From IMG/VR virus record IMGVR_UViG_3300025652_000536, positions 1 through 24,254 of that record: a stretch of DNA of 24,254 nucleotides, one strand, 5' to 3'. Each line of letters starts with the position of its first letter. Position 1 is the stretch's first letter. The notes under the pieces are model-generated. The model was not told the DNA's origin, searched no databases, and saw only the letters and a list, made by a program, of their open reading frames with translations. A program made the position numbers and the translations under genes. Shown piece by piece: positions 1,264 through 19,776 of this stretch. This DNA is from a virus.

Positions 1264-2493
1264 TCATTTCAAATGGCTTTTTTCATCAAATGGATTTTTA
1301 TCGCTCCATGCCCTGTATAGGTGAAAAACATAAAGATTGTCCATTATACCAATTTTTAGCCCTTTAGCCCTTACTTTCTGATTGAATATCGTATCAAATG
1401 CAATGTGGTTTTCTTCAAAGCCTCCTACCTCCTTCCAAGTGGATTTTTTAAAAGCCATAAAGCAGCCCGCTACACCTAATTGTTTTAAATCCGTTATCCC
1501 TGGATCCTCATACTTTTCTGATTGAGCTATCTTAATATGATTTTTAATATTCATATCCTCAGAAAACGTGTTATTGTGGCATTGGTGCATTCCTCTAAGC
1601 CTATTTGTAAAGCATCCAATCAGCCCAAACCTTGATCCATGCAAAGCCAAAGACTTATAGATTCTTTCGCCCCAATCAGGAGTAAGATAGGTAATATCTC
1701 CATCTTGTAATACGATCCAAGTATCATCCTCCCACTTTTCGCAAAACTCATTTAAAGCCCTTCCAATGTTCTTATTAATACTGAAAGGATTTGAATAGAC
1801 AATCTTTAAAGGTATCACATAACCGCCTTGATTTTTTTGCATAAAAAGATTTGCAGAATGATTGCCTAGCAACTTGAAATATGAGTACATTACAACCCGT
1901 TTAATCGAATTGATCTTAGTTCCTGTCATGTAACTAGCATACGGAAAAGTTAATTGATCTCGATGGCTGTATTGATTCAATGCTTTTGCCCAAACCAACT
2001 CCAACCGCTTCACTTCATCTGACTTATCCCGAATTAAAACCCCATTAGCCCAAAGGCCAAAATCAACCCGACACCCTGATTCCTTTACAAATTTAATCGT
2101 TCTTTCTACTGATTCCCTTGTATCTTTTCCTAGCTTGATAATCTTTTCACCCTCAGATATTATGTCTTGCCTCTCATTATGGATGCAGGTTAAAACACCT
2201 CCTTTGTAATAGGTATCAATAAACTGATTAGCATCTGAAATTTGCTGAAAGTTGCCATCAAAGTAAATGGTTAAATCGTATCCATCAGTATATTTATGGG
2301 AAAGGATTTTGATTAACCTTTGTTGCTTATAGTTGTTTTGCTCTTTTGGAATGACCTTAATTTTCCATCCTAAAGCCTTTAGATTTGGATTATCTGTGAA
2401 AAGAATATAATCCCAACCAGGGCTATTCCTTGTTGATTTAGGAACATCATAATCATTTGTGATTACTGAATAGATTAACTTTTTGTTAGCCAT
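1264..2493 (-). CDS. two-domain glycosyltransferase (DUF616-like + GT-A family 2-like)
   Basis: 409 residues in two parts. The N-terminal ~200 residues look like a DUF616-type glycosyltransferase domain: 'KLIYSVITNDYD' opening, 'WDYILFTDN', 'KILSHKY' and 'DLTIYFDGNFQ', with 'HRDQLTFPYA' further on. From about 230 onward a GT-A/family-2-like domain follows, with 'IVLQDGDITYLTPDW' (DGD in place of the usual DxD), and 'GVAGCFMAFKKSTWKEVGGF', the acceptor-site stretch common in family 2 enzymes. The likely role is sugar transfer to a surface polymer or virion protein; donor and acceptor are unknown. The start overlaps the methyltransferase stop by 19 nt, so the two are probably co-translated. No membrane segment is visible. 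Confidence 0.75.
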   Translation of the reverse strand: MANKKLIYSVITNDYDVPKSTRNSPGWDYILFTDNPNLKALGWKIKVIPKEQNNYKQQRLIKILSHKYTDGYDLTIYFDGNFQQISDANQFIDTYYKGGVLTCIHNERQDIISEGEKIIKLGKDTRESVERTIKFVKESGCRVDFGLWANGVLIRDKSDEVKRLELVWAKALNQYSHRDQLTFPYASYMTGTKINSIKRVVMYSYFKLLGNHSANLFMQKNQGGYVIPLKIVYSNPFSINKNIGRALNEFCEKWEDDTWIVLQDGDITYLTPDWGERIYKSLALHGSRFGLIGCFTNRLRGMHQCHNNTFSEDMNIKNHIKIAQSEKYEDPGITDLKQLGVAGCFMAFKKSTWKEVGGFEENHIAFDTIFNQKVRAKGLKIGIMDNLYVFHLYRAWSDKNPFDEKSHLK

Positions 2494-3023
2494 CCTTCAT
2501 TTTCTTTGTAATCTTCAAAGGTTGTTTCCATATCCACAAATCCTAATTCTAGTTTATGCCTTGACTTACGGATTATTCCCAGCCCATATTCGTCATCCCA
2601 ATAGTCTAGCTTTAACTTAGTATTGATTTTAAGGCCATTCCAAGCCCTCCATACATCTCCAGTCCATACCGTTTGAATCCTTGGCACTTGTTGCATTTGA
2701 AACGTGTGTGGCTTAATATCATGGATCAAAATCATACCGCCTTTATTCAGGAAATTCCAAGAGTTTACAATATCTCGTTCTACTTGGTCGGCATGGTGTA
2801 GGCTATCAATGAAAATAAGGTCAAAGGTATCTTGGCAATGCTCAAAGAAAGTGTCTGAGTCAAGAGTTCCAATGTCTTTTCCACTTACAGCCGGATCAAT
2901 TCCAATTTTGGTCTGAACATCAACCCCTTTAAAATTATTCCCATCACCTAACCCAATTTCCAAGTAGCTTGAAAATCCATTTGCTTTGATTAGCCCGTTT
3001 ATGTATTCAGTTCTTTTGTTCAT
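2475..3023 (-). CDS. class I SAM-dependent methyltransferase (Methyltransf_24-like)
   Basis: 182 residues with the small Rossmann-type methyltransferase pattern: motif I 'YLEIGLGDGNNF' at about residue 20, the acidic end of strand 2 at 'IGIDPA', then 'FDLIFIDSLHHADQVERDI' (motif IV/post-IV, with the His-rich 'D-x-x-H' loop) and 'LNKGGMILIHDI'. This set is typical of Methyltransf_24 proteins, often encoded next to glycosyltransferases where they methylate sugars or small acceptors. It lies 5 nt after a 108-aa unknown gene and overlaps the glycosyltransferase gene downstream. Substrate inferred only from context. Confidence 0.8.
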   Translation of the reverse strand: MNKRTEYINGLIKANGFSSYLEIGLGDGNNFKGVDVQTKIGIDPAVSGKDIGTLDSDTFFEHCQDTFDLIFIDSLHHADQVERDIVNSWNFLNKGGMILIHDIKPHTFQMQQVPRIQTVWTGDVWRAWNGLKINTKLKLDYWDDEYGLGIIRKSRHKLELGFVDMETTFEDYKENEGWLTKS

Positions 3024-3519: not shown

Positions 3520-4150
3520 TGTTGAGGTATTTTTCGAGTTGGGAGGTTAGGAATTGACCGCTTTTATTAGCATTATTAACCTCATTAAAATTAGTTACCT
3601 TAAATTGATAAGTAGGGCTAATTGATAAAGTTTCATGTATTAATTCAACCTCAATCCTTTTCGGGAGCTTGGTAGCCCATTTGCCTTGTTGGTAGATAAA
3701 AATGCCCCATATATAAAAAGAGTCATCTGATTTATGGTAATGATAATTATCTAATCCAAAATCAGGACTTGATCCATTATAGCCTACAGTATTTACAAAA
3801 CTATCCCCCTCCTTAATCTCCCCGTACCTTTCAAAGGCTTCTTTCTTGAGATGATCGACGTATGCTTGTTCGGTTGATTTTTTGAATAATTGCTTTCCAA
3901 ATGAGAAATCAAAGCCAATTAATTGAACGTAATTTCTATATATCGATGTAATTTTATACAACCTACCCATCTTCAATTCTGGTGTATCGAAAGCAATATC
4001 AACACATTCAGCAAACTCCACCCCTTCCCAAATGTCTTTTGGCTTAATATGGATTAGTGTTCCGTTATCGTCGCTCTCTCTATAGGTTGAAATCTCAAAC
4101 CCTTCTTTTTCACAAATAGCCTTTAGCCGTTCAAAATCATCTTGTTTCAT
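3503..4150 (-). CDS. hypothetical protein (215 aa)
   Basis: Not recognised. The protein starts with a helical segment (DDFERLKAICEKEGFEIS) and continues as an aromatic-rich, probably beta-rich protein with Trp/Tyr clusters (DNYHYHKSDDSFYIWGIFIY). There is no signal peptide or membrane segment. It is the first gene of the accessory operon below the capsid terminator. The ATG at 4150 directly follows the leader CTTAACCAAAAAACT, and a promoter-like CATATTTT lies at 4170-4177, so it may start its own transcript covering the methyltransferase and glycosyltransferase genes. Confidence 0.6.
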   Translation of the reverse strand: MKQDDFERLKAICEKEGFEISTYRESDDNGTLIHIKPKDIWEGVEFAECVDIAFDTPELKMGRLYKITSIYRNYVQLIGFDFSFGKQLFKKSTEQAYVDHLKKEAFERYGEIKEGDSFVNTVGYNGSSPDFGLDNYHYHKSDDSFYIWGIFIYQQGKWATKLPKRIEVELIHETLSISPTYQFKVTNFNEVNNANKSGQFLTSQLEKYLNNEIQD

Positions 4151-4165
4151 AGTTTTTTGGTTAAG
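4151..4165. repeat. left arm of inverted repeat flanking the tRNA-like region
   Basis: AGTTTTTTGGTTAAG on the plus strand; its reverse complement recurs at 4543-4556 with one A fewer. The arms enclose about 380 bp containing the tRNA-like gene and the capsid terminator. This arm is also the 5' leader of the gene starting at 4150, and the motif resembles other gene leaders in the window, so the pairing may be a coincidence of leader use. Confidence 0.4.
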
Positions 4166-4169
4166 TGTT

Positions 4170-4177
4170 AAAATATG
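4170..4177 (-). promoter_or_regulatory. possible promoter -7 element and hairpin upstream of accessory operon
   Basis: On the minus strand CATATTTT sits about 20 nt upstream of the ATG at 4150, within a TAGCATATTT string shared with the promoter of the protease gene (6511-6520). A perfect 6-bp hairpin (TGCTAG, 6-nt loop, CTAGCA) at 4176-4193 overlaps its upstream edge and could be an operator. No clear TTG is seen at the -33 position, so this is tentative. Confidence 0.3.
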
Positions 4178-4318
4178 CTAGTCTTTCCTAGCAGTCACCA
4201 TTTAGTTTGCTTAGTGTTAGACTATACTGGTTTAGCCTCTATAAACTATCTAAGCTTAGCCTGACTGCATTTAAATAACACCTGTGTCAGTTTTCCTTAT
4301 CGTGTTAATCATGCTATG

Positions 4319-4441
4319 TAATCGGGACAGGACTCGAACCTGTAAGATTAATTTATTGACTTATTAGCCCTTAACGGTGCTTATCATTTATGCCCTATCT
4401 ATTAGGGAAGTCTCAGTGTCTACCAATTCCGCCACCCGATT
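4319..4441 (-). tRNA. tRNA-Leu-like gene with oversized anticodon/variable region
   Basis: Read on the minus strand, both ends form a class II tRNA: a perfect 7-bp acceptor stem (AATCGGG with CCCGATT), then TG and a leucine-type D arm (GCGGAATTGGTAGAC), and at the 3' side a T arm with 5-bp stem ACAGG/CCTGT and loop TTCGAGT, then discriminator A. CCA is not encoded. The segment between D arm and T arm is about 35-40 nt longer than in a normal tRNA-Leu (total 123 nt against ~85). After the expected anticodon-stem start TGAGACTT no complementary 3' strand follows in the right place; instead there is a CCCTA/TAGGG hairpin and other sequence. I could not assign an anticodon. It may contain an insertion, be degenerate, or be a tRNA-like RNA. 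The rest of the CDS-free stretch 4151-4559 holds the inverted repeat arms, promoters and terminator listed separately. Confidence 0.5.
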
Positions 4442-4448
4442 GATTTAC

Positions 4449-4478
4449 CAAATAAAGGAATAATTCAGATAAATTCAA
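4449..4478 (-). promoter_or_regulatory. promoter of the tRNA-like gene
   Basis: On the minus strand TTG (4478-4476) is followed after exactly 19 nt by TTTATTTG (4456-4449), one mismatch from the Bacteroidetes -7 consensus TAnnTTTG. Transcription would begin within a few bases of the tRNA 5' end at 4441. It lies just past the capsid-operon terminator, which would explain how the RNA gene is expressed separately. Confidence 0.5.
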
Positions 4479-4497
4479 AATCTTGTATTAATTTGTT

Positions 4498-4533
4498 TAT
4501 AAAAAAAGCCCTAAAGAATATCTCTAGGGCTTT
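4498..4533 (-). terminator. rho-independent terminator after the capsid gene
   Basis: A perfect 9-bp stem, AAAGCCCTA at 4505-4513 with TAGGGCTTT at 4525-4533 and an 11-nt loop, is followed on the minus strand by a run of seven T. It lies 27 nt past the capsid stop and should end the capsid transcript before the tRNA-like gene and accessory block. Confidence 0.85.
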
Positions 4534-4542
4534 ACCATTTAA

Positions 4543-4556
4543 CTTAACCAAAAACT
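4543..4556. repeat. right arm of inverted repeat flanking the tRNA-like region
   Basis: CTTAACCAAAAACT on the plus strand, the reverse complement of 4151-4165 apart from one A. It sits between the capsid stop and the terminator and points into the capsid gene, so it cannot be a normal gene leader in this orientation. Confidence 0.4.
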
Positions 4557-4559
4557 ACT

Positions 4560-5816
4560 TTACGTTGTTTCCAAGATCGCTTTAGCAGCAGCCATTGTAC
4601 CTTTAACCAATACCGGAGTATCATTTGCAGACACGAACTGAACAAGTCTTTGCTCCATCAAGATTGTTTTTCTGTTGTTGATGAAATCATTTCCATCCAA
4701 TCCGATTTGCAATCTCATTCCCTGTCTGAATCGTACGTTTACCGCTGACAAGTCACCACCAATGAAATCATTACCTCCAAGTGATGCATTTGTACCGATC
4801 AATCTGACACCCCATGCAGATACATTACCCTGAGCATCTACCAAAACACCCTGTGGGAGGATATAATGATTGTCAGTTGCTTTTGTAGATAGCATTTCAT
4901 GGATAACACCATTCTTAACGAAGATAGCGTTTACAATTCCATTAGCTTCTTTCACCTGAGCAATGATTGCATTGATAACATCCCAAGAAGTAGCATTGTC
5001 AACTGCTCCAGGCAAGGTAGTTCCTCCTGTAAATGCACTTGCATACTCAGTAAGACCTTTCAAATTGTCTCCTGTATTGTCACCTGAAAACAACTGATTT
5101 TCAGTTACAATATCGGCTCGCTTCATCATATTCGTCTGAATATAAGAAACCAACTGAGGCAAATCTTCCAAGAACTCGGTAGTTACTTTACCGTAAACAG
5201 CAATCTTTTTAGCTACTGCATTTCTTTCTTCATATCGAACTGATAGCTGAGTTTTGGTATCACCTTCACCAATGAATATAGGCGTACCCTGCTCGTCTAA
5301 TTCTTCAATCCACATAGCGTAAGGCTTAGAGATTGTTCCCGTGCTTACGTTCTGCAAATAGGTTAGTACTCGCTTTCTGATTGAAGAGATAATACCTGTA
5401 TTCTCAGTAAGTGAATATTGAGATGCAGATCCAACCGCTTCAATAGTGTTGAAATCTCCAATCGTTACCGCTGCTTTCAAGTCAAAGAATAATGGGCCTT
5501 CTTGTCTACCACCGTTATCAATGATAGCTTTAATTTCAGCTCCTTTTTCCTTGAATTGCTCCTCAAGTTCTACAATCCAGTTTTTAGCCTTTACTTCTGA
5601 CCTTGTAGGCATTTTCTTCAGATCAATGGCAAGTGTATCCAATTGCTTCTGCATCACCTCCATTTGATCTTTTGTAGCCTTCTCAGATAAGAGAATTTCT
5701 TGAGCCTTTGCAAACGCTTCATTAGCCTTTGCGATTGCATCGGAAGCATCTTTCTTGATTGCTTCGCCTGCTGACTTAATCAATAGATCAAGTTCTGTTT
5801 TTAATTCGTTTTCCAT
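4560..5816 (-). CDS. major capsid protein, HK97 fold
   Basis: 418 residues, normal for HK97-type capsid precursors. The first ~100 residues are a Lys/Glu/Ala-rich coiled coil (delta/scaffold domain, removed by the prohead protease in this family), ending around 'IIDNGGRQEGPLFFDLKAA'. The rest is the shell domain: 'SLTENTGIISSIRKRVLTYL' (N-arm and early helix), the 'EERNAVAKKIAVYGKVTTEFLEDLPQLVSYIQTNMMKRADIVTENQLFSGDNTG' spine-helix region (written here in order from about residue 195), and 'RQGMRLQIGLDGNDFINNRKTILMEQRLVQFV' near the C-terminus, characteristic of Phage_capsid (PF05065). It follows the protease gene with a 16-nt overlap and is closed by a strong terminator. Confidence 0.93.
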   Translation of the reverse strand: MENELKTELDLLIKSAGEAIKKDASDAIAKANEAFAKAQEILLSEKATKDQMEVMQKQLDTLAIDLKKMPTRSEVKAKNWIVELEEQFKEKGAEIKAIIDNGGRQEGPLFFDLKAAVTIGDFNTIEAVGSASQYSLTENTGIISSIRKRVLTYLQNVSTGTISKPYAMWIEELDEQGTPIFIGEGDTKTQLSVRYEERNAVAKKIAVYGKVTTEFLEDLPQLVSYIQTNMMKRADIVTENQLFSGDNTGDNLKGLTEYASAFTGGTTLPGAVDNATSWDVINAIIAQVKEANGIVNAIFVKNGVIHEMLSTKATDNHYILPQGVLVDAQGNVSAWGVRLIGTNASLGGNDFIGGDLSAVNVRFRQGMRLQIGLDGNDFINNRKTILMEQRLVQFVSANDTPVLVKGTMAAAKAILETT

Positions 5817-6493
5817 GTTTCCAATGAGTTTTTTAAATGTTCGATTAGTTGTCTATTCTGATCGGCTTCTAGTTCTTTGGAAGTGTTCTTAAACGGCTTC
5901 AAAATTTCCTGAAGTGATTTAACGTGATTTTCAAGTTTTATTAGGGTATCATCCGTGCAAGTTGAAACCCTTAAATATTTTTCTAGTTTTCCCATGTAAG
6001 CAATTGCCTCTTCTGGGTCTGTGAAATCTTTTAATTCAATCTTGCTAGTGTTAGGATTCATACCAAGAAAACGAATTGCAGAAACTTCTAAAAGCATTGA
6101 TTCCTTTAAAATGTTAGCCTTTCTGCTCGAATCAAACATTTCTTTAATCGGGACATATCCGTATGAATGTTGATTTATAATGCCTGAATCAACCATTTTG
6201 ACAAAATCAACTCCATCGTTATGCGTTCCTGACTTCATCTCATATCCTGCCTCTTCGTGATTTTCCCAAACATCAGTTAAAATGCCTGGCACATTTTTCT
6301 TGTCATGGTCTAAAAGGAACTTAATTAGTTTTGATGATTTTGGCCCACGTTCATTAATTGACTTGGAAAAAACCCCAAATTCTGATATATCACCTCCTAA
6401 GTCCTTAACATTATGCTTGGCAAAAACCCCCGATACAATACCCTGTTTCAGATCAACGTCTTTAAATCCAATATCGACACCTTTAGTTAGCAT
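5801..6493 (-). CDS. HK97-family prohead protease
   Basis: 230 residues. Recognisable herpes/HK97 prohead serine protease motifs: 'VSGVFAKHNVKDLGGD' near the start, 'LIKFLLDHDKKNVPG' (the His of LL-x-H-D is the catalytic His in this family), 'GIINQHSYGYVP' (catalytic Ser in the S-x-G context) and 'MLLEVSAIRFLGMNPNT' (E-V-S strand). The last ~70 residues form a helical, charged tail beyond the protease fold. It should cut the delta domain from the capsid precursor. The start is ATG at 6493, about 14 nt downstream of a predicted transcription start; the end overlaps the capsid gene by 16 nt. Confidence 0.9.
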   Translation of the reverse strand: MLTKGVDIGFKDVDLKQGIVSGVFAKHNVKDLGGDISEFGVFSKSINERGPKSSKLIKFLLDHDKKNVPGILTDVWENHEEAGYEMKSGTHNDGVDFVKMVDSGIINQHSYGYVPIKEMFDSSRKANILKESMLLEVSAIRFLGMNPNTSKIELKDFTDPEEAIAYMGKLEKYLRVSTCTDDTLIKLENHVKSLQEILKPFKNTSKELEADQNRQLIEHLKNSLETWKTN

Positions 6494-6561: not shown

Positions 6562-6592
6562 TTTATAAATCCATTTTTTAGAATTAGATTTG
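6562..6592 (+). promoter_or_regulatory. promoter of the PP-loop gene, possibly leaderless
   Basis: TAGATTTG at 6585-6592 matches TAnnTTTG exactly; a weaker -33 element (TTT at 6562-6564) lies 20 nt upstream. With the usual 3-5 nt from this element to the start of transcription, the transcript would begin at or very near the A of the ATG at 6596. The 15-nt string GAATTAGATTTGACT recurs, with one extra C, at the YopX-gene promoter (9633-9648). Confidence 0.5.
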
Positions 6593-6595
6593 ACT

Positions 6596-7408
6596 ATGAA
6601 AACAATCAACTCTTTAAGCGGTGGTAAAACCTCTTCATATATGGCAGTTCATTACCCTACTGATTTTAATATTTTTTCATTAGTAAGAACTGAGTCTGAA
6701 TATTGCAGATCAAAAGACAAAAATCTTATAAAATACGTAAGTGATAAAATAGGCATAGATTTCATTGCAACTGCTGAAAGTGATAAAACTCTTTACGTTG
6801 TTCGTGATTTGGAGCAGTTGATAGGCAAAGAAATACTTTGGGTATCAGGAGATTCATTTGAAAAGGTTATTGAAAAACGGAAGGCATTACCCAATATGAT
6901 GTGGAGGTTTTGCACTACTGAAATGAAAATGAAACCTATTTTTGAGTATTGCCAAAATGAAATAAAAGAGATTGTTCAGATGCAAATTGGTTTCCGGTAT
7001 GATGAAAAGGAAAGGGCTAATAGAGAAAATACTACTTTCAAGGCTGTTGTAGGTCAAAGTGAAAATGGAAGAAACAAATGGGATGAAATCTATTGGAGGG
7101 AATTAAGCTATCCAATGATTGATGATAAAAAAACACATCCAACTATTTCAAAGTGGGCTAATGATTCAGGTTTAATTTTTCCAAACGATTCAAATTGTGT
7201 TGGTTGTTTTTGGAAACCATTTCAGCAACTTAGAAAGAATTGGGAAGATGAACCTTTAAAAATGAGATGGTTTTCTGAAATGGAAACCAAAATGAATAGA
7301 TCATTTAAAAAGGAAATGAATTACAAAAAGGTTAAAAAAATAGGCATTCAGCAGGATTTTAATTTTGGTACTGGCTCAGGATGTCAGGCAGGATTTTGTA
7401 CAGATTAA
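6596..7408 (+). CDS. PP-loop ATPase, phage PAPS-reductase-like protein with Cys clusters
   Basis: 270 residues from the ATG at 6596; an earlier TTG in frame at 6590 lies inside the promoter and is not used. The P-loop 'LSGGKTSSY' (SGGKTS at 8-13) is the PP-loop of the PAPS reductase/ATP sulfurylase-like superfamily, which activates substrates by adenylation. Other features: 'WRFCTTEMKMKP' (C106, the CT-x-x-x-K pattern), 'IGFRYDEKERA' (132-142), and a C-x-x-C at 201-204 with further Cys at 263 and 268, a set that could bind an iron-sulfur cluster as in DndC-type and tRNA-thiolation enzymes. True PAPS reductases are shorter and end differently, so sulfate reduction is doubtful. The gene is a plus-strand moron inside the minus late operon and ends 2 nt from the convergent minor-head gene. 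Confidence 0.82.
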   Translation: MKTINSLSGGKTSSYMAVHYPTDFNIFSLVRTESEYCRSKDKNLIKYVSDKIGIDFIATAESDKTLYVVRDLEQLIGKEILWVSGDSFEKVIEKRKALPNMMWRFCTTEMKMKPIFEYCQNEIKEIVQMQIGFRYDEKERANRENTTFKAVVGQSENGRNKWDEIYWRELSYPMIDDKKTHPTISKWANDSGLIFPNDSNCVGCFWKPFQQLRKNWEDEPLKMRWFSEMETKMNRSFKKEMNYKKVKKIGIQQDFNFGTGSGCQAGFCTD

Positions 7409-16841: not shown

Positions 16842-16873
16842 TTGTTTTAATTCAAAAAAAAGTATTACATTTA
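16842..16873 (+). promoter_or_regulatory. promoter of the PP-loop/EctC-like/ParB cassette
   Basis: TTG at 16842-16844, 21 nt, then TACATTTA at 16866-16873, one mismatch from TAnnTTTG. It starts just after the ATPase stop and is followed by ACACTTAACCAAAT and the ATG at 16895. This indicates that the cassette can be transcribed on its own. Confidence 0.6.
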
Positions 16874-16894
16874 TACACTTAACCAAATAAAAAC

Positions 16895-18205
16895 ATGGAA
16901 AGAATATATTTTGAAAACAAAAGCACTTATGATGCTGCAAACGAAAGAATAGAGTTTATTTTTGAAAATTTCGATAAGATTTATCTTAGTTTTTCAGGAG
17001 GTAAAGACTCTGGTGTAATGCTAAATCTTGTTATTGATTACATGAAAAAAAACAAAATCAAGGATAAAATAGGTGTTATGATTATGGACAATGAAGCCAA
17101 TTATAAGCTATCAACAAAGTTTATGCTTGAAATATTGGATGAAAATAGAGAATACTTGGATATTTTTTGGTGTTGTTTGCCAATAACTTTACCATGTACC
17201 GTTTCAAGCTACATGACCGAATGGCAATGCTTTGGGAATAGAGATAGATCTAAATGGATTAATGAGGTTCCTGACAGAGATTATGTTGTAACATGGGAAA
17301 ATAGGATTGAAAAGTATAAGATGGACTTTTTTGAAGAGGATATGAATTATGATGAATTTTGGAATAAGTTCGGAGATTGGTATGGTCAGGGTAAAAGAAC
17401 TGCTTGTTTGATTGGAATTAGAACGGCTGAATCTTTAAATAGATTTAGGGCTATAATGAATGAAAGAAAGCAGACTTTAAAAGGGCAAATGTGGACTAAG
17501 AAAAACACAAAGTATGTTTATAATTGCTATCCGATTTACGATATGACTACTGATGACGTCTGGGTAGCAAACGCAAAGTTTGGATGGAAATACAACGAGC
17601 TTTATGATTTATTTTACATGGCAGGTGTTTCGGTTTATAAAATGAGGGTTGCCTCTCCTTTCATGTCAGAATCTAAATCCTCGCTAAATATGTATAGAGT
17701 TATTGACCCAGATATATGGGTTAAGCTTTGTGGTCGTGTTCAGGGAGCTAATTTTGTGGCTACTTATGGAAAACAATTAAATTACCACAGCTTCAAATTA
17801 CCTCAAGGTCATACATGGAAATCTTTTACCAAATTTCTTTTAGATACATTACCTGATGAAGTTTCCGAAAATTTTAAGATGCGTTTTGCTCAATCTCTTA
17901 GATATTGGTCAAGAGTAGGGCGCGGAGTCTCAGACGAATTAATTGAAGACCTTAAAAAAAACAATATTGACTTTATTATTGGCGAAAAAACAAAGCATGG
18001 AAACAAAGATAAATATTGTGTACGTATGCTACCTCCAGATCATTTAGATATGTTAAGAACCCATAACAGCACAATAACATCTTGGAAAAGATTTGCAATG
18101 ACTATCCTTAAAAACGATCACACTTGCAAGTATATGGGATTAGCCCCGACTCAAGAGCAAGCAAAAAGACAAAGAGAAATAATGGAAAAGTATAAGAACA
18201 TTTAA
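16895..18205 (+). CDS. ibrA-like: IbrA/YbdN-like PP-loop protein (PAPS reductase family, DUF3440)
   Basis: 436 residues, matching the usual length of the IbrA/YbdN group. SGGKDS at 34-39 is the PP-loop; 'LIGIRTAESLNRFRAI' (172-187) is the conserved 'G-I-R-x-x-E-S' adenylate-binding stretch; 'CYPIYDMTTDDVW' (211-223) is another family landmark. The C-terminal DUF3440 part ends with 'SWKRFAMTILKNDHTCKYMG' (396-415). There are Cys at 93, 94, 101, 112, 171 and 211, but no clear C-x-x-C pair for a cluster. In E. coli the relatives act with ParB-like partners (IbrB/YbdM) as prophage-linked regulators; the chemistry is unknown. It is followed 10 nt later by the EctC-like gene. Confidence 0.88.
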   Translation: MERIYFENKSTYDAANERIEFIFENFDKIYLSFSGGKDSGVMLNLVIDYMKKNKIKDKIGVMIMDNEANYKLSTKFMLEILDENREYLDIFWCCLPITLPCTVSSYMTEWQCFGNRDRSKWINEVPDRDYVVTWENRIEKYKMDFFEEDMNYDEFWNKFGDWYGQGKRTACLIGIRTAESLNRFRAIMNERKQTLKGQMWTKKNTKYVYNCYPIYDMTTDDVWVANAKFGWKYNELYDLFYMAGVSVYKMRVASPFMSESKSSLNMYRVIDPDIWVKLCGRVQGANFVATYGKQLNYHSFKLPQGHTWKSFTKFLLDTLPDEVSENFKMRFAQSLRYWSRVGRGVSDELIEDLKKNNIDFIIGEKTKHGNKDKYCVRMLPPDHLDMLRTHNSTITSWKRFAMTILKNDHTCKYMGLAPTQEQAKRQREIMEKYKNI

Positions 18206-18215
18206 CCAAAAACTT

Positions 18216-18590
18216 ATGAAAATTATAAGAGGAAATGAATTAGAAGGAACAAATCGAGACGTTTTATTTACAGGAGGTAACTCACTAAGAATGTTAGTTC
18301 GAGATGATAATATGGGTTTTGGAGTTTGTAAAACTCATGTAAGAAAAGGTGGCCCATATCATTGGCATTATAAAAACCATTTAGAGTCTTGCTACTGCAT
18401 TAAAGGACATGGGTACTTGACTAACTTAGAAACAGGTTTAAAAATACTTATAAGCCCTGACACAATGTATGTTCTAGATAAGAATGATGATCACACATTT
18501 GAGGCTTTAACAGACGTAATTTTAATATCAATTTTCAATCCTCCATTGGTAGGGAATGAATCACACGATAAAAACGGAAACTATAAATAA
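18216..18590 (+). CDS. ectC-like: ectoine synthase-like cupin (EctC family)
   Basis: 124 residues, against about 130 in true ectoine synthases. The correspondence is end to end: 'MGFGVCKTHVRKGGPYHWHYKNHLESCYCIKGHGYL' covers the core (written as 33-68), followed by 'LETGLKILISPDTMYVLDKNDDH' and 'FNPPLVGNESHDKNGNYK', all standing where the EctC family has its signatures. From what I recall of the Paenibacillus lautus enzyme, the iron ligands are Glu57, Tyr85 and His93; here E57, Y85 and H93 are present at the same numbers. Y52 and F107 are also kept. Some recalled substrate-pocket positions differ: G21 (Trp), C38 (Asn) and S105 (Cys), while R25 and T40 remain. EctC closes the ectoine ring from N-acetyl-diaminobutyrate; here ectA and ectB are absent, so the substrate may be different. 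Confidence 0.85.
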   Translation: MKIIRGNELEGTNRDVLFTGGNSLRMLVRDDNMGFGVCKTHVRKGGPYHWHYKNHLESCYCIKGHGYLTNLETGLKILISPDTMYVLDKNDDHTFEALTDVILISIFNPPLVGNESHDKNGNYK

Positions 18591-18597
18591 AAAAGAA

Positions 18598-19119
18598 ATG
18601 GAAAATTTTAAATCACCAGTTTACAATGTAATAGGCGTACCATTAGAAATGATTCACGCCAATGAGTACAATCCAAACAGAGTAGCTCCACCTGAAATGG
18701 CTTTGCTTGAAACTTCGATTTGGGAAGATGGATATACTCAGCCTGTAGTTTGTTTTTACGATAAGGAAAAAAACAAATACATAGTAGTTGATGGGTTTCA
18801 CAGGTATAGCATTCTTAAAAATTCACAACGAATATTTGAACGTGAAAAAGGGATTCTGCCAATAGTTGTAATAGACAAAGAAATTGGAGATCGGATGGCT
18901 TCTACTATTAGACACAATAGAGCAAGAGGAACCCACAATATTGAACTAATGTCAAGTATTGTTTCAGAACTTATTGAAATGGGAAAAGGTGATGCATGGA
19001 TTTGTAAGCATATTGGAATGTCTTCAGACGAGCTTTTAAGACTTAAGCAAATAACAGGTCTTGCTAGTTTATTTCTTAATAAGTCATTTGCTCAGGCATG
19101 GGAGCCAGTAGAGGAATAA
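18598..19119 (+). CDS. ibrB-like: IbrB/YbdM-like ParB/sulfiredoxin-fold protein
   Basis: 173 residues from the ATG at 18598, which follows AAAAGAA and lies 7 nt after the EctC-like stop; an in-frame ATG at 18556 would overlap that gene. The ParB/Srx fold is marked by 'VIGVPLEMIHANEYNPNRV' (11-29), 'YTQPVVCFYD' (46-55), 'YIVVDGFHRYSIL' (61-73, the D-G-x-H-R motif), and 'ASTIRHNRARGTH' (101-113). Residues about 115-155 form a helical HTH-like part (WICKHIGMSSDELLRLKQI). Relatives pair with IbrA-type proteins. The fold can bind nucleotides and has ATPase or nuclease activity in some members; which applies is unknown. Confidence 0.88.
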   Translation: MENFKSPVYNVIGVPLEMIHANEYNPNRVAPPEMALLETSIWEDGYTQPVVCFYDKEKNKYIVVDGFHRYSILKNSQRIFEREKGILPIVVIDKEIGDRMASTIRHNRARGTHNIELMSSIVSELIEMGKGDAWICKHIGMSSDELLRLKQITGLASLFLNKSFAQAWEPVEE

Positions 19120-19658
19120 AACAAATATACCACCCATACTCTAAATGGGAGTGTGGTAAAAATGGAATGTGGGAGGATGTTTTAGGAGTTAAATCAGAGA
19201 AATTAATTGATTTAGCTACTAGATTTACATCTAACCACGTTCTGTATGGAGAAGCAATGAGAAAAGTTATTTACACTTGGAAATATTCTTGTGAAAACTT
19301 TTTGACAGATAAGAACATAAATAGAAAAGCTTGGTTAGGTCATGCAGCTTGCAGTTTAGAGCATAATTTACCAGAGAATATTGTTCGTATTGCATGGAAA
19401 AAATTAACAGAAGATGAAAGGTCAAAAGCAAATTTACAAGCTGAAAAGTATATCAAAGAATGGGAGCAAAATTATTTATATAAGTTAAATACTACTCAAT
19501 TAGATTTATTTGATGAAAACAAAAATAAAGAAATATCTAAAAAGCTGGGAAAGAAAGTGTTATTCAAAAGGAATTCCAGACGAATTACCATCTTTCGTGG
19601 AAAGAAAAACAAACCAACCTTCATACAAGAAGGTAGTTATGACAATACTAAAAAATGA
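19098..19658 (+). CDS. phage protein associated with PP-loop/ParB cassettes, putative clamp-binding motif
   Basis: 186 residues; the ATG overlaps the ParB-like stop by 22 nt and no later good start precedes the conserved part. The core 'YHPYSKWECGKNGMWEDV', 'YGEAMRKVIYTWKYSCENFLTDKNINRKAWLGHAACSLEH' (in order) and 'LTEDERSKANLQAEKYIKEWEQ' resembles an unnamed phage family I recall beside PAPS-reductase/ParB genes. It then has 'TTQLDLFDE' at about 136-144; QLDLF fits the bacterial sliding-clamp-binding consensus QL(S/D)LF. The last ~40 residues are basic and low in family character, and the other frame over the same DNA encodes the conserved start of the next gene, so this tail may be unimportant or the result of a frameshift. 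Confidence 0.65.
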   Translation: MGASRGIKQIYHPYSKWECGKNGMWEDVLGVKSEKLIDLATRFTSNHVLYGEAMRKVIYTWKYSCENFLTDKNINRKAWLGHAACSLEHNLPENIVRIAWKKLTEDERSKANLQAEKYIKEWEQNYLYKLNTTQLDLFDENKNKEISKKLGKKVLFKRNSRRITIFRGKKNKPTFIQEGSYDNTKK

Positions 19659-19776
19659 TTATGCTTTAAAAACATTGGGAAAAAATCCTCCTAAAAGTCA
19701 AATTTATCATGATATTAAAAGAGCTGAACTTATTAAAAATGGAAAAATTAAAGTCATTCAAAAAAGACTGTTTTAG
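19513..19776 (+). CDS. stand-alone DUF3440 C-terminal-like protein (87 aa)
   Basis: ATG at 19513 (an in-frame TTG directly precedes it). 'YLKSWERKCYSKGIPDELPSF' (about 9-29) followed by 'PSYKKVVMTILKNDYALKTLG' matches the C-terminal part of DUF3440 proteins and is directly comparable with 'SWKRFAMTILKNDHTCKYMG' in the IbrA-like protein of this same cassette. Short stand-alone versions are known to me from phages. It overlaps the previous gene by 146 nt in the +1 frame, unusually long. Either it is separately translated, or a frameshift joins it to that gene. Confidence 0.65.
   Translation: MKTKIKKYLKSWERKCYSKGIPDELPSFVERKTNQPSYKKVVMTILKNDYALKTLGKNPPKSQIYHDIKRAELIKNGKIKVIQKRLF

Follow-up and report, generated by a model that had tools for sequence, protein, structure and literature searches.

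An ectoine-synthase-like gene within a recurrent phage cassette of IbrA- and ParB-type proteins, and its possible role in nucleic acid modification

What does a gene resembling ectoine synthase do in a bacterial virus when it lies between the two halves of an IbrA/IbrB-type pair? The question is raised by the IMG/VR virus record IMGVR_UViG_3300025652_000536, the 24,254 bases of which we refer to as the window. The minus strand of the window carries the head, portal and terminase genes of a tailed phage, and the plus strand carries replication and recombination genes (Erf, helicase, RusA) and a cassette of five genes at 16895-19776. These encode an IbrA-type PP-loop ATPase, an EctC-clade cupin, an IbrB-like protein of the ParB/sulfiredoxin (Srx) fold, and two small proteins, here called g4 and g5; all five had been proposed in an initial annotation, and all are present. 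The five-gene unit is common to many unrelated bacterial viruses. From its genes and structure models we tentatively propose, at somewhat less than even probability, that it is a phage enzyme system that builds a cyclic ectoine-like group on nucleic acid, most likely on new phage DNA.

Queries with IbrA, g4 and EctC against IMG/VR, and with IbrA against 84,980 species genomes, supplied the related loci. No scan retains more than its 80 best loci, and the sample therefore leans towards close relatives. Among 134 distinct IbrA proteins of the window's clade, 133 are accompanied by EctC, 132 by ParB, 127 by g4 and 124 by g5. All five genes are found at 123 of these loci; the window's gene order is kept in 98, and the genes lie on one strand in every locus. 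The linkage of EctC to this clade is near-obligate: none of 15 distinct full-length IbrA proteins outside the clade has EctC beside it, and in an earlier tally of a smaller set of loci the figures were 103 of 104 within the clade versus 0 of 28 outside, the latter including the shorter E. coli-type IbrA. A search that started from EctC instead found IbrA in 78 of 80 loci, the other two of which end at contig edges. EctC and ParB are joined in a single open reading frame (ORF) in 45 of 131 loci. Because the five genes recur on one strand in 123 of the 134 distinct relatives, and because the EctC-ParB fusion recurs as well, the cassette is not a product of chance. The initial annotation had allowed that the trio might prove unique to one genome, with the EctC-like gene randomly placed in it; these counts refute both suppositions. 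Isolated viruses have the trio too: tblastn detected it in Pseudoalteromonas phage XCL1123 and in two Mycobacterium phages, Nebkiss and Gaia. The Gaia protein gp104, of 299 residues, contains EctC and ParB together and is annotated as "ectoine synthase/ParB multidomain protein".

Models for ectA and ectB had no match in 49 cassette-bearing records, some of which are fragments. The trio proposed initially is a real unit that recurs without them. A non-exhaustive pattern search of the 84,980 species yielded only six IbrA relatives, three with EctC, all in metagenome-assembled genomes (MAGs); the cassette is mainly a viral module. Bacterial EctC queried against viral contigs returned one cassette EctC alone, that of locus L002, but a single-sequence query is insensitive and ordinary ect operons may yet occur in viral contigs. 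On a quick IbrA tree, for which the more careful search was incomplete, accounting for the presence of EctC takes two changes, which would fit a single gain and a single loss. Distances among IbrA proteins correlate with those among EctC (0.46) and g5 (0.57). Long-type IbrA with ParB and no EctC occurs in the MAG contigs L228 and L229 (Fibrimonadales) and L227 (Elusimicrobiota).

The EctC-clade cupin (124 residues, 18216-18590; this and the other cassette genes are on the plus strand) was assigned from NCBIfam, Pfam and PDB matches. It scores 138.4 bits against the NCBIfam ectoine synthase model PRK13290, above the curated cut-off of 128, and 131.9 bits against Pfam Ectoine_synth (PF06339), and it matches the PDB ectoine synthase 5bxx with an E-value of 3e-24. 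The iron ligands E57, Y85 and H93 are present, and glycine stands in place of Trp-21. The phage proteins form a clade of their own, apart from 11 bacterial EctC (support 100/100). Across 132 phage EctC, Glu-57, Tyr-85, Arg-25, Thr-40, Tyr-52, Glu-115 and His-117 are invariant, His-93 is kept in 131 and His-55 is nearly invariant; in the structure of Paenibacillus lautus EctC many of the residues kept bind iron, substrate or product (PMC6344544). C59 and F95 are newly invariant. Trp-21 occurs in none of the 132 proteins (glycine in 111, phenylalanine in 10), and no tryptophan was found at positions 15-30 in the 100 that were checked. By comparison, this residue is fully conserved in 437 EctC of ect clusters and kept, sometimes shifted by two positions, in 145 orphans, and the W21A enzyme retains 9.7% activity (PMC6344544). 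Because the metal ligands are retained and Trp-21 is always absent, the sequences suggest that phage EctC probably keeps the iron chemistry, while its substrate pocket differs. Known EctC slowly cyclises glutamine too (PMC5924519), and a host amino acid is for that reason possible as the precursor.

IbrA (436 residues, 16895-18205) has the PAPS-reductase fold, the PP-loop motif SGGKDSG and a DUF3440 domain, on the evidence of Pfam, phrog and AlphaFold2. It scores 198.9 bits against Pfam DUF3440 and 340.9 bits against phrog_2302, and also matches PAPS_reduct. Searches of the PDB by sequence gave no match with the single protein and a weak LarE match with a profile, and folds were therefore compared, using models whose alignments were built without rows from annotated records. 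Residues 5-270 of the IbrA model (predicted local distance difference test score, pLDDT, 84) match PAPS/APS reductase, FAD synthase and CysD with Z scores of 13-15.7; TilS, NcsA and TtuA match at 10-11.7, and GMP synthetase is likewise lower than the best folds. This fold is common to adenylating and thiolating enzymes. The PP-loop is invariant in 149 relatives. Within the EctC clade, and not outside it, Cys-93, -101, -112 and -279 are almost always kept, and because these four cysteines are clade-specific, the chemistry of IbrA may differ in the clade too.

The ParB/Srx-fold protein, recognized by phrog_2159 (273 bits) and by the motifs DGFHR and SxIRHNRARG, is placed at 18598-19119. Its reading frame is open from 18556 (18556-19119), but the ATG at 18598 is the likelier start because its relatives begin there. 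It scores 22 bits against Pfam PF02195, below the cut-off of 26.3, and 18.7 bits against the canonical ParB partition model TIGR00180, for which the cut-off is 58.45. The motifs DGxHR and SxIRHNRARG vary little or not at all among 131 relatives of the clade and 15 others. A ParB profile matched ParB, Noc and SbnI chains of the PDB weakly; the top row, 8vd6, was discounted since the match covers a helix-turn-helix-like repeat. Proteins of the ParB fold can bind DNA and nucleoside triphosphates (NTPs) (PMC12704722), and the main text of a 2025 survey of the fold mentions neither ectoine, cupin nor PAPS. ParB is divergent in L031, L037, L050, L061, L065, L071, L080 and others, with profile scores of 225-265 versus the usual 330-370.

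The two small genes provide a different kind of evidence. The protein g4 (186 residues, 19098-19658), whose gene overlaps g5 in another frame in its C-terminal part, is kept in 127 of 134 cassettes. It matched no Pfam family, and its AlphaFold2 model (pLDDT 87), which is all helical, had no PDB match at E <= 0.001. The g5 gene (about 19513-19776) had been described as a stand-alone DUF3440 tail, and that description holds: the protein matches DUF3440 positions 132-179 with an E-value of 7.7e-5 and 23 bits, just below the cut-off of 25. A distant similarity (29% identity over 68 residues) links it to the tail of E. coli-type IbrA. Many g4 and g5 proteins end in motifs of the type that binds the sliding clamp, such as QLKLF, QMEMF and QLQLW. 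Counted after removal of similar C-termini, with expectations taken from shuffles, such tails occur in 35 of 86 g5 proteins (0.35 expected) and 21 of 94 g4 proteins (0.32 expected), and in none of IbrA, ParB or EctC. For neighbouring ORFs the figure is 9 of 1,833 (5.2 expected). A narrower motif pattern was also run. In the window the g4 motif, QLDLF (19497-19511), is internal, and g5 ends in QKRLF (19759-19773), a weaker form of the motif. The clamp-type tails therefore tie the system to DNA replication and are the main reason for favouring DNA as its target. The neighbours of the cassettes, identified by sequence inspection, are largely replication and recombination genes and include no further constant partner.

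A homologue of the ectoine hydroxylase EctD sits between IbrA and EctC in three cassettes (L046, L148 and L185). All three homologues have the core WHSDFETWHxxDGMP of the 17-residue EctD signature; the first signature residue, aligned to a phenylalanine of EctD, differs in L185, whose homologue matches EctD in the PDB with an E-value of 2e-76. A degenerate DNA pattern for HSDFETWH found these three contigs and no others in the IMG/VR collection of 2.9 million, and a profile search for the EctD homologue agreed. L046 and L148 also carry a methyltransferase that is closest to demethylmacrocin O-methyltransferase and to PDB 3ssm, a record titled "Methyltransferase" that we take to be MycE. In L148 the methyltransferase lies between EctC and ParB in a single fused protein of 499 residues. 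Hydroxylation of a ring followed by its O-methylation would be the natural reading of these cassettes. On the IbrA tree L148 and L185 are sisters, and L046 is apart from both. L082, the sole clade member without EctC, carries a 1-Cys peroxiredoxin (3868-4617) where EctC would be, and L041 has a divergent EctC followed by a 1-Cys peroxiredoxin (5519-6181). The peroxiredoxins draw attention as the ParB fold is common to sulfiredoxin.

The proposed pathway would run as follows. IbrA would adenylate an acceptor or precursor at the cost of ATP, and the EctC-like cupin would close a ring, a cyclic amidine, on a precursor that bears an amide. NTP binding, and probably DNA binding too, would fall to the ParB/Srx protein, and g4 and g5, as partner subunits, would anchor the complex to the beta sliding clamp. 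Where an EctD-like enzyme is present, as in some phages, it would hydroxylate the ring before its O-methylation. The benefit of the mark would probably be protection from host nucleases. The idea that the cassette makes or installs a modified group was already in the initial annotation and is now backed by the fusions, the EctD-like and O-methyltransferase add-ons and the clamp-binding tails; we infer the DNA target, the order of steps, the precursor, the product and the benefit. A more specific version, in which the ectoine-type ring is a DNA hypermodification, sometimes hydroxylated and O-methylated, made by EctC (with EctD where present) and installed at the fork by IbrA-ParB held on the clamp by g4 and g5, strikes us as doubtful.

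Several observations weigh against the proposal that the cassette builds an ectoine-like group on DNA. The cassette-bearing records hold no EctA or EctB to supply the known precursor of EctC. The EctD homologues score 189 (L046), 173 (L148) and 285 bits (L185), below the TIGR02408 equivalog cut-off of 336.5. Because EctC-less cassettes of IbrA, ParB, g4 and g5 exist, EctC is an add-on to that core. The distances among ParB proteins do not track those of IbrA (r 0.08), so that we do not claim strict co-inheritance of all five genes; ParB may be exchanged freely between cassettes, and, with the divergent ParB proteins taken into account, such swapping is possible. About half of the loci have no recognisable clamp tail, and the tails themselves are consensus matches. 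Replication inhibitors and transposases, too, are found among the proteins that bind the clamp.

In another explanation, which we hold to be unlikely, g4 and g5 would bind the sliding clamp in order to hijack or inhibit either the replication of the host or a defence linked to the clamp, and the enzymes would serve this end by modifying a protein or a nucleotide. The clamp-type tails of both proteins, the small, helical g4 without a known fold, and the position of the cassette among replication and recombination genes are all compatible with takeover of the replisome or anti-defence. However, such a role leaves the ring-forming, hydroxylating and O-methylating enzymes and the EctC-ParB fusions unexplained. 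The same enzymes bear on the improbable case of a regulator, in which the module would control phage or host transcription in the manner of E. coli IbrAB, with EctC sensing or making a small ligand. IbrA and IbrB are annotated in Streptococcus, Lactobacillus and Escherichia phages, E. coli IbrAB are annotated as co-activators of prophage expression, and the ParB fold is capable of binding DNA and NTPs (PMC12704722), but the kept ATPase and iron active sites and the added hydroxylase and O-methyltransferase suggest catalysis over sensing.

Two further alternatives concern RNA and ectoine itself. The PP-loop enzyme might act on tRNA, as TilS and NcsA do, with EctC tailoring the added group, since the IbrA fold is common to the tRNA enzymes TilS, NcsA and TtuA (Z 10-11.7). 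The nearest folds, however, are those of PAPS/APS reductase, FAD synthase and CysD, and both the clamp tails and the linked DNA replication genes favour DNA; we hold RNA modification to be decidedly unlikely. The viral EctC might instead serve auxiliary metabolism by making ectoine for infected cells under salt stress. M. smegmatis, the host of Gaia, makes ectoine. The window's EctC is above the NCBIfam ectoine-synthase cut-off and retains its iron site, three cassettes have an ectoine-hydroxylase homologue, and a viral ectoine synthase from an estuary was interpreted as salt protection in a 2026 study (PMC13079714). Against a role in osmoprotection stand the absence of ectA and ectB from the 49 cassette-bearing records, the lack of any other EctC in the three cassette-holding MAGs, the frequent fusion of EctC to ParB and its tie to IbrA, and the absence from all 132 phage EctC of Trp-21, the residue replaced in the W21A enzyme with 9.7% activity (PMC6344544). 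We regard the osmolyte explanation as very improbable.

The cassette can be placed among known systems. The IbrA/IbrB (YbdN/YbdM) pairs of phages, prophages and plasmids have the same DUF3440/PAPS-reductase IbrA adjoining a ParB-like IbrB, and EctC-less pairs have relatives of g4 and sometimes of g5 too. Relative to these pairs, the EctC-clade IbrA is one branch, with clade-specific cysteines and nearly always EctC and a separate g5; the IbrA proteins of 580 plasmid records are all less than 60% identical to that of the window. The IbrA/ParB/g4/g5 core belongs to the already known IbrAB kind. With the EctC of ectABC operons and orphans the phage protein shares a family score above the cut-off, the iron ligands and the majority of the substrate residues. 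It differs in forming a separate clade, in lacking Trp-21, in having the newly invariant C59 and F95, in the absence of EctA and EctB and in its frequent fusion to ParB. Phage DNA hypermodification pathways are likewise multi-enzyme phage modules, although we know of none that uses EctC, EctD or IbrA chemistry. The T4 alpha-glucosyltransferase, reported to bind the gp45 clamp, is a case of a DNA-modifying enzyme coupled to a sliding clamp.

Phosphorothioation by DndC or SspD with DndB or SspE likewise pairs a PAPS-reductase-like enzyme with a partner of the ParB/Srx superfamily, as described in extracts of PMC11662687 and PMC12839542. According to the same extracts, ParB-superfamily proteins are present in Dnd and Ssp systems (PMC11662687), the ParB-like ATPase DpdB works in DNA base insertion (PMC12839542), and counterparts of EctC, g4 and g5 are not named there for Dnd or Ssp. 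The window's IbrA scores 23.7 bits against the DndC model TIGR03183, far from its cut-off of 290.4, and 29.5 bits against DndC in a PADLOC scan that covered the five cassette proteins. A literature search found no paper that describes a link between EctC, IbrA and ParB, and none that assigns a biochemical role to IbrA/IbrB.

Phage and plasmid records with IbrA/IbrB genes number in the hundreds, and the EctC cassette offers a chemical handle on these genes: at least one IbrAB branch would work with a cyclic ectoine-like group while docking on the replication clamp. The function of IbrAB becomes testable in isolated phages of laboratory hosts (Gaia, Nebkiss and XCL1123). Auxiliary-metabolism calls of a viral "ectoine synthase" or of an IbrA-type "PAPS reductase/cysH" can be parts of this cassette. 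The cassette is also relevant to the puzzling orphan EctC proteins found in bacteria. The M. abscessus prophage prophiGD21-3 carries genes for a PAPS reductase and for a cupin resembling cysteine dioxygenase (PMC8092301), and the "group 1" orphan EctC of M. abscessus belongs to a basal EctC-like group (PMC5924519); both may be this cassette.

The initial annotation had placed a promoter of its own before the cassette. That claim found no support in a sigma-70 scan, in which the window had 14 sites versus 15.0 expected, with none in the 54-base gap before IbrA; other promoter types were outside the scan. Small GIY-YIG-like ORFs lie between cassette genes in L004 (6890-7264) and also in L047, L084, L109 and L208, and L003 has a larger one between EctC and ParB. 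Elsewhere in the window, a further PAPS-reductase-like gene (phrog_424, 82 bits), distinct from IbrA, is found on the plus strand at 6590-7408, amid the minus-strand head genes, and at 1264-3023 on the minus strand a glycosyltransferase-like gene (phrog_26101) adjoins a methyltransferase-like gene (phrog_27561).

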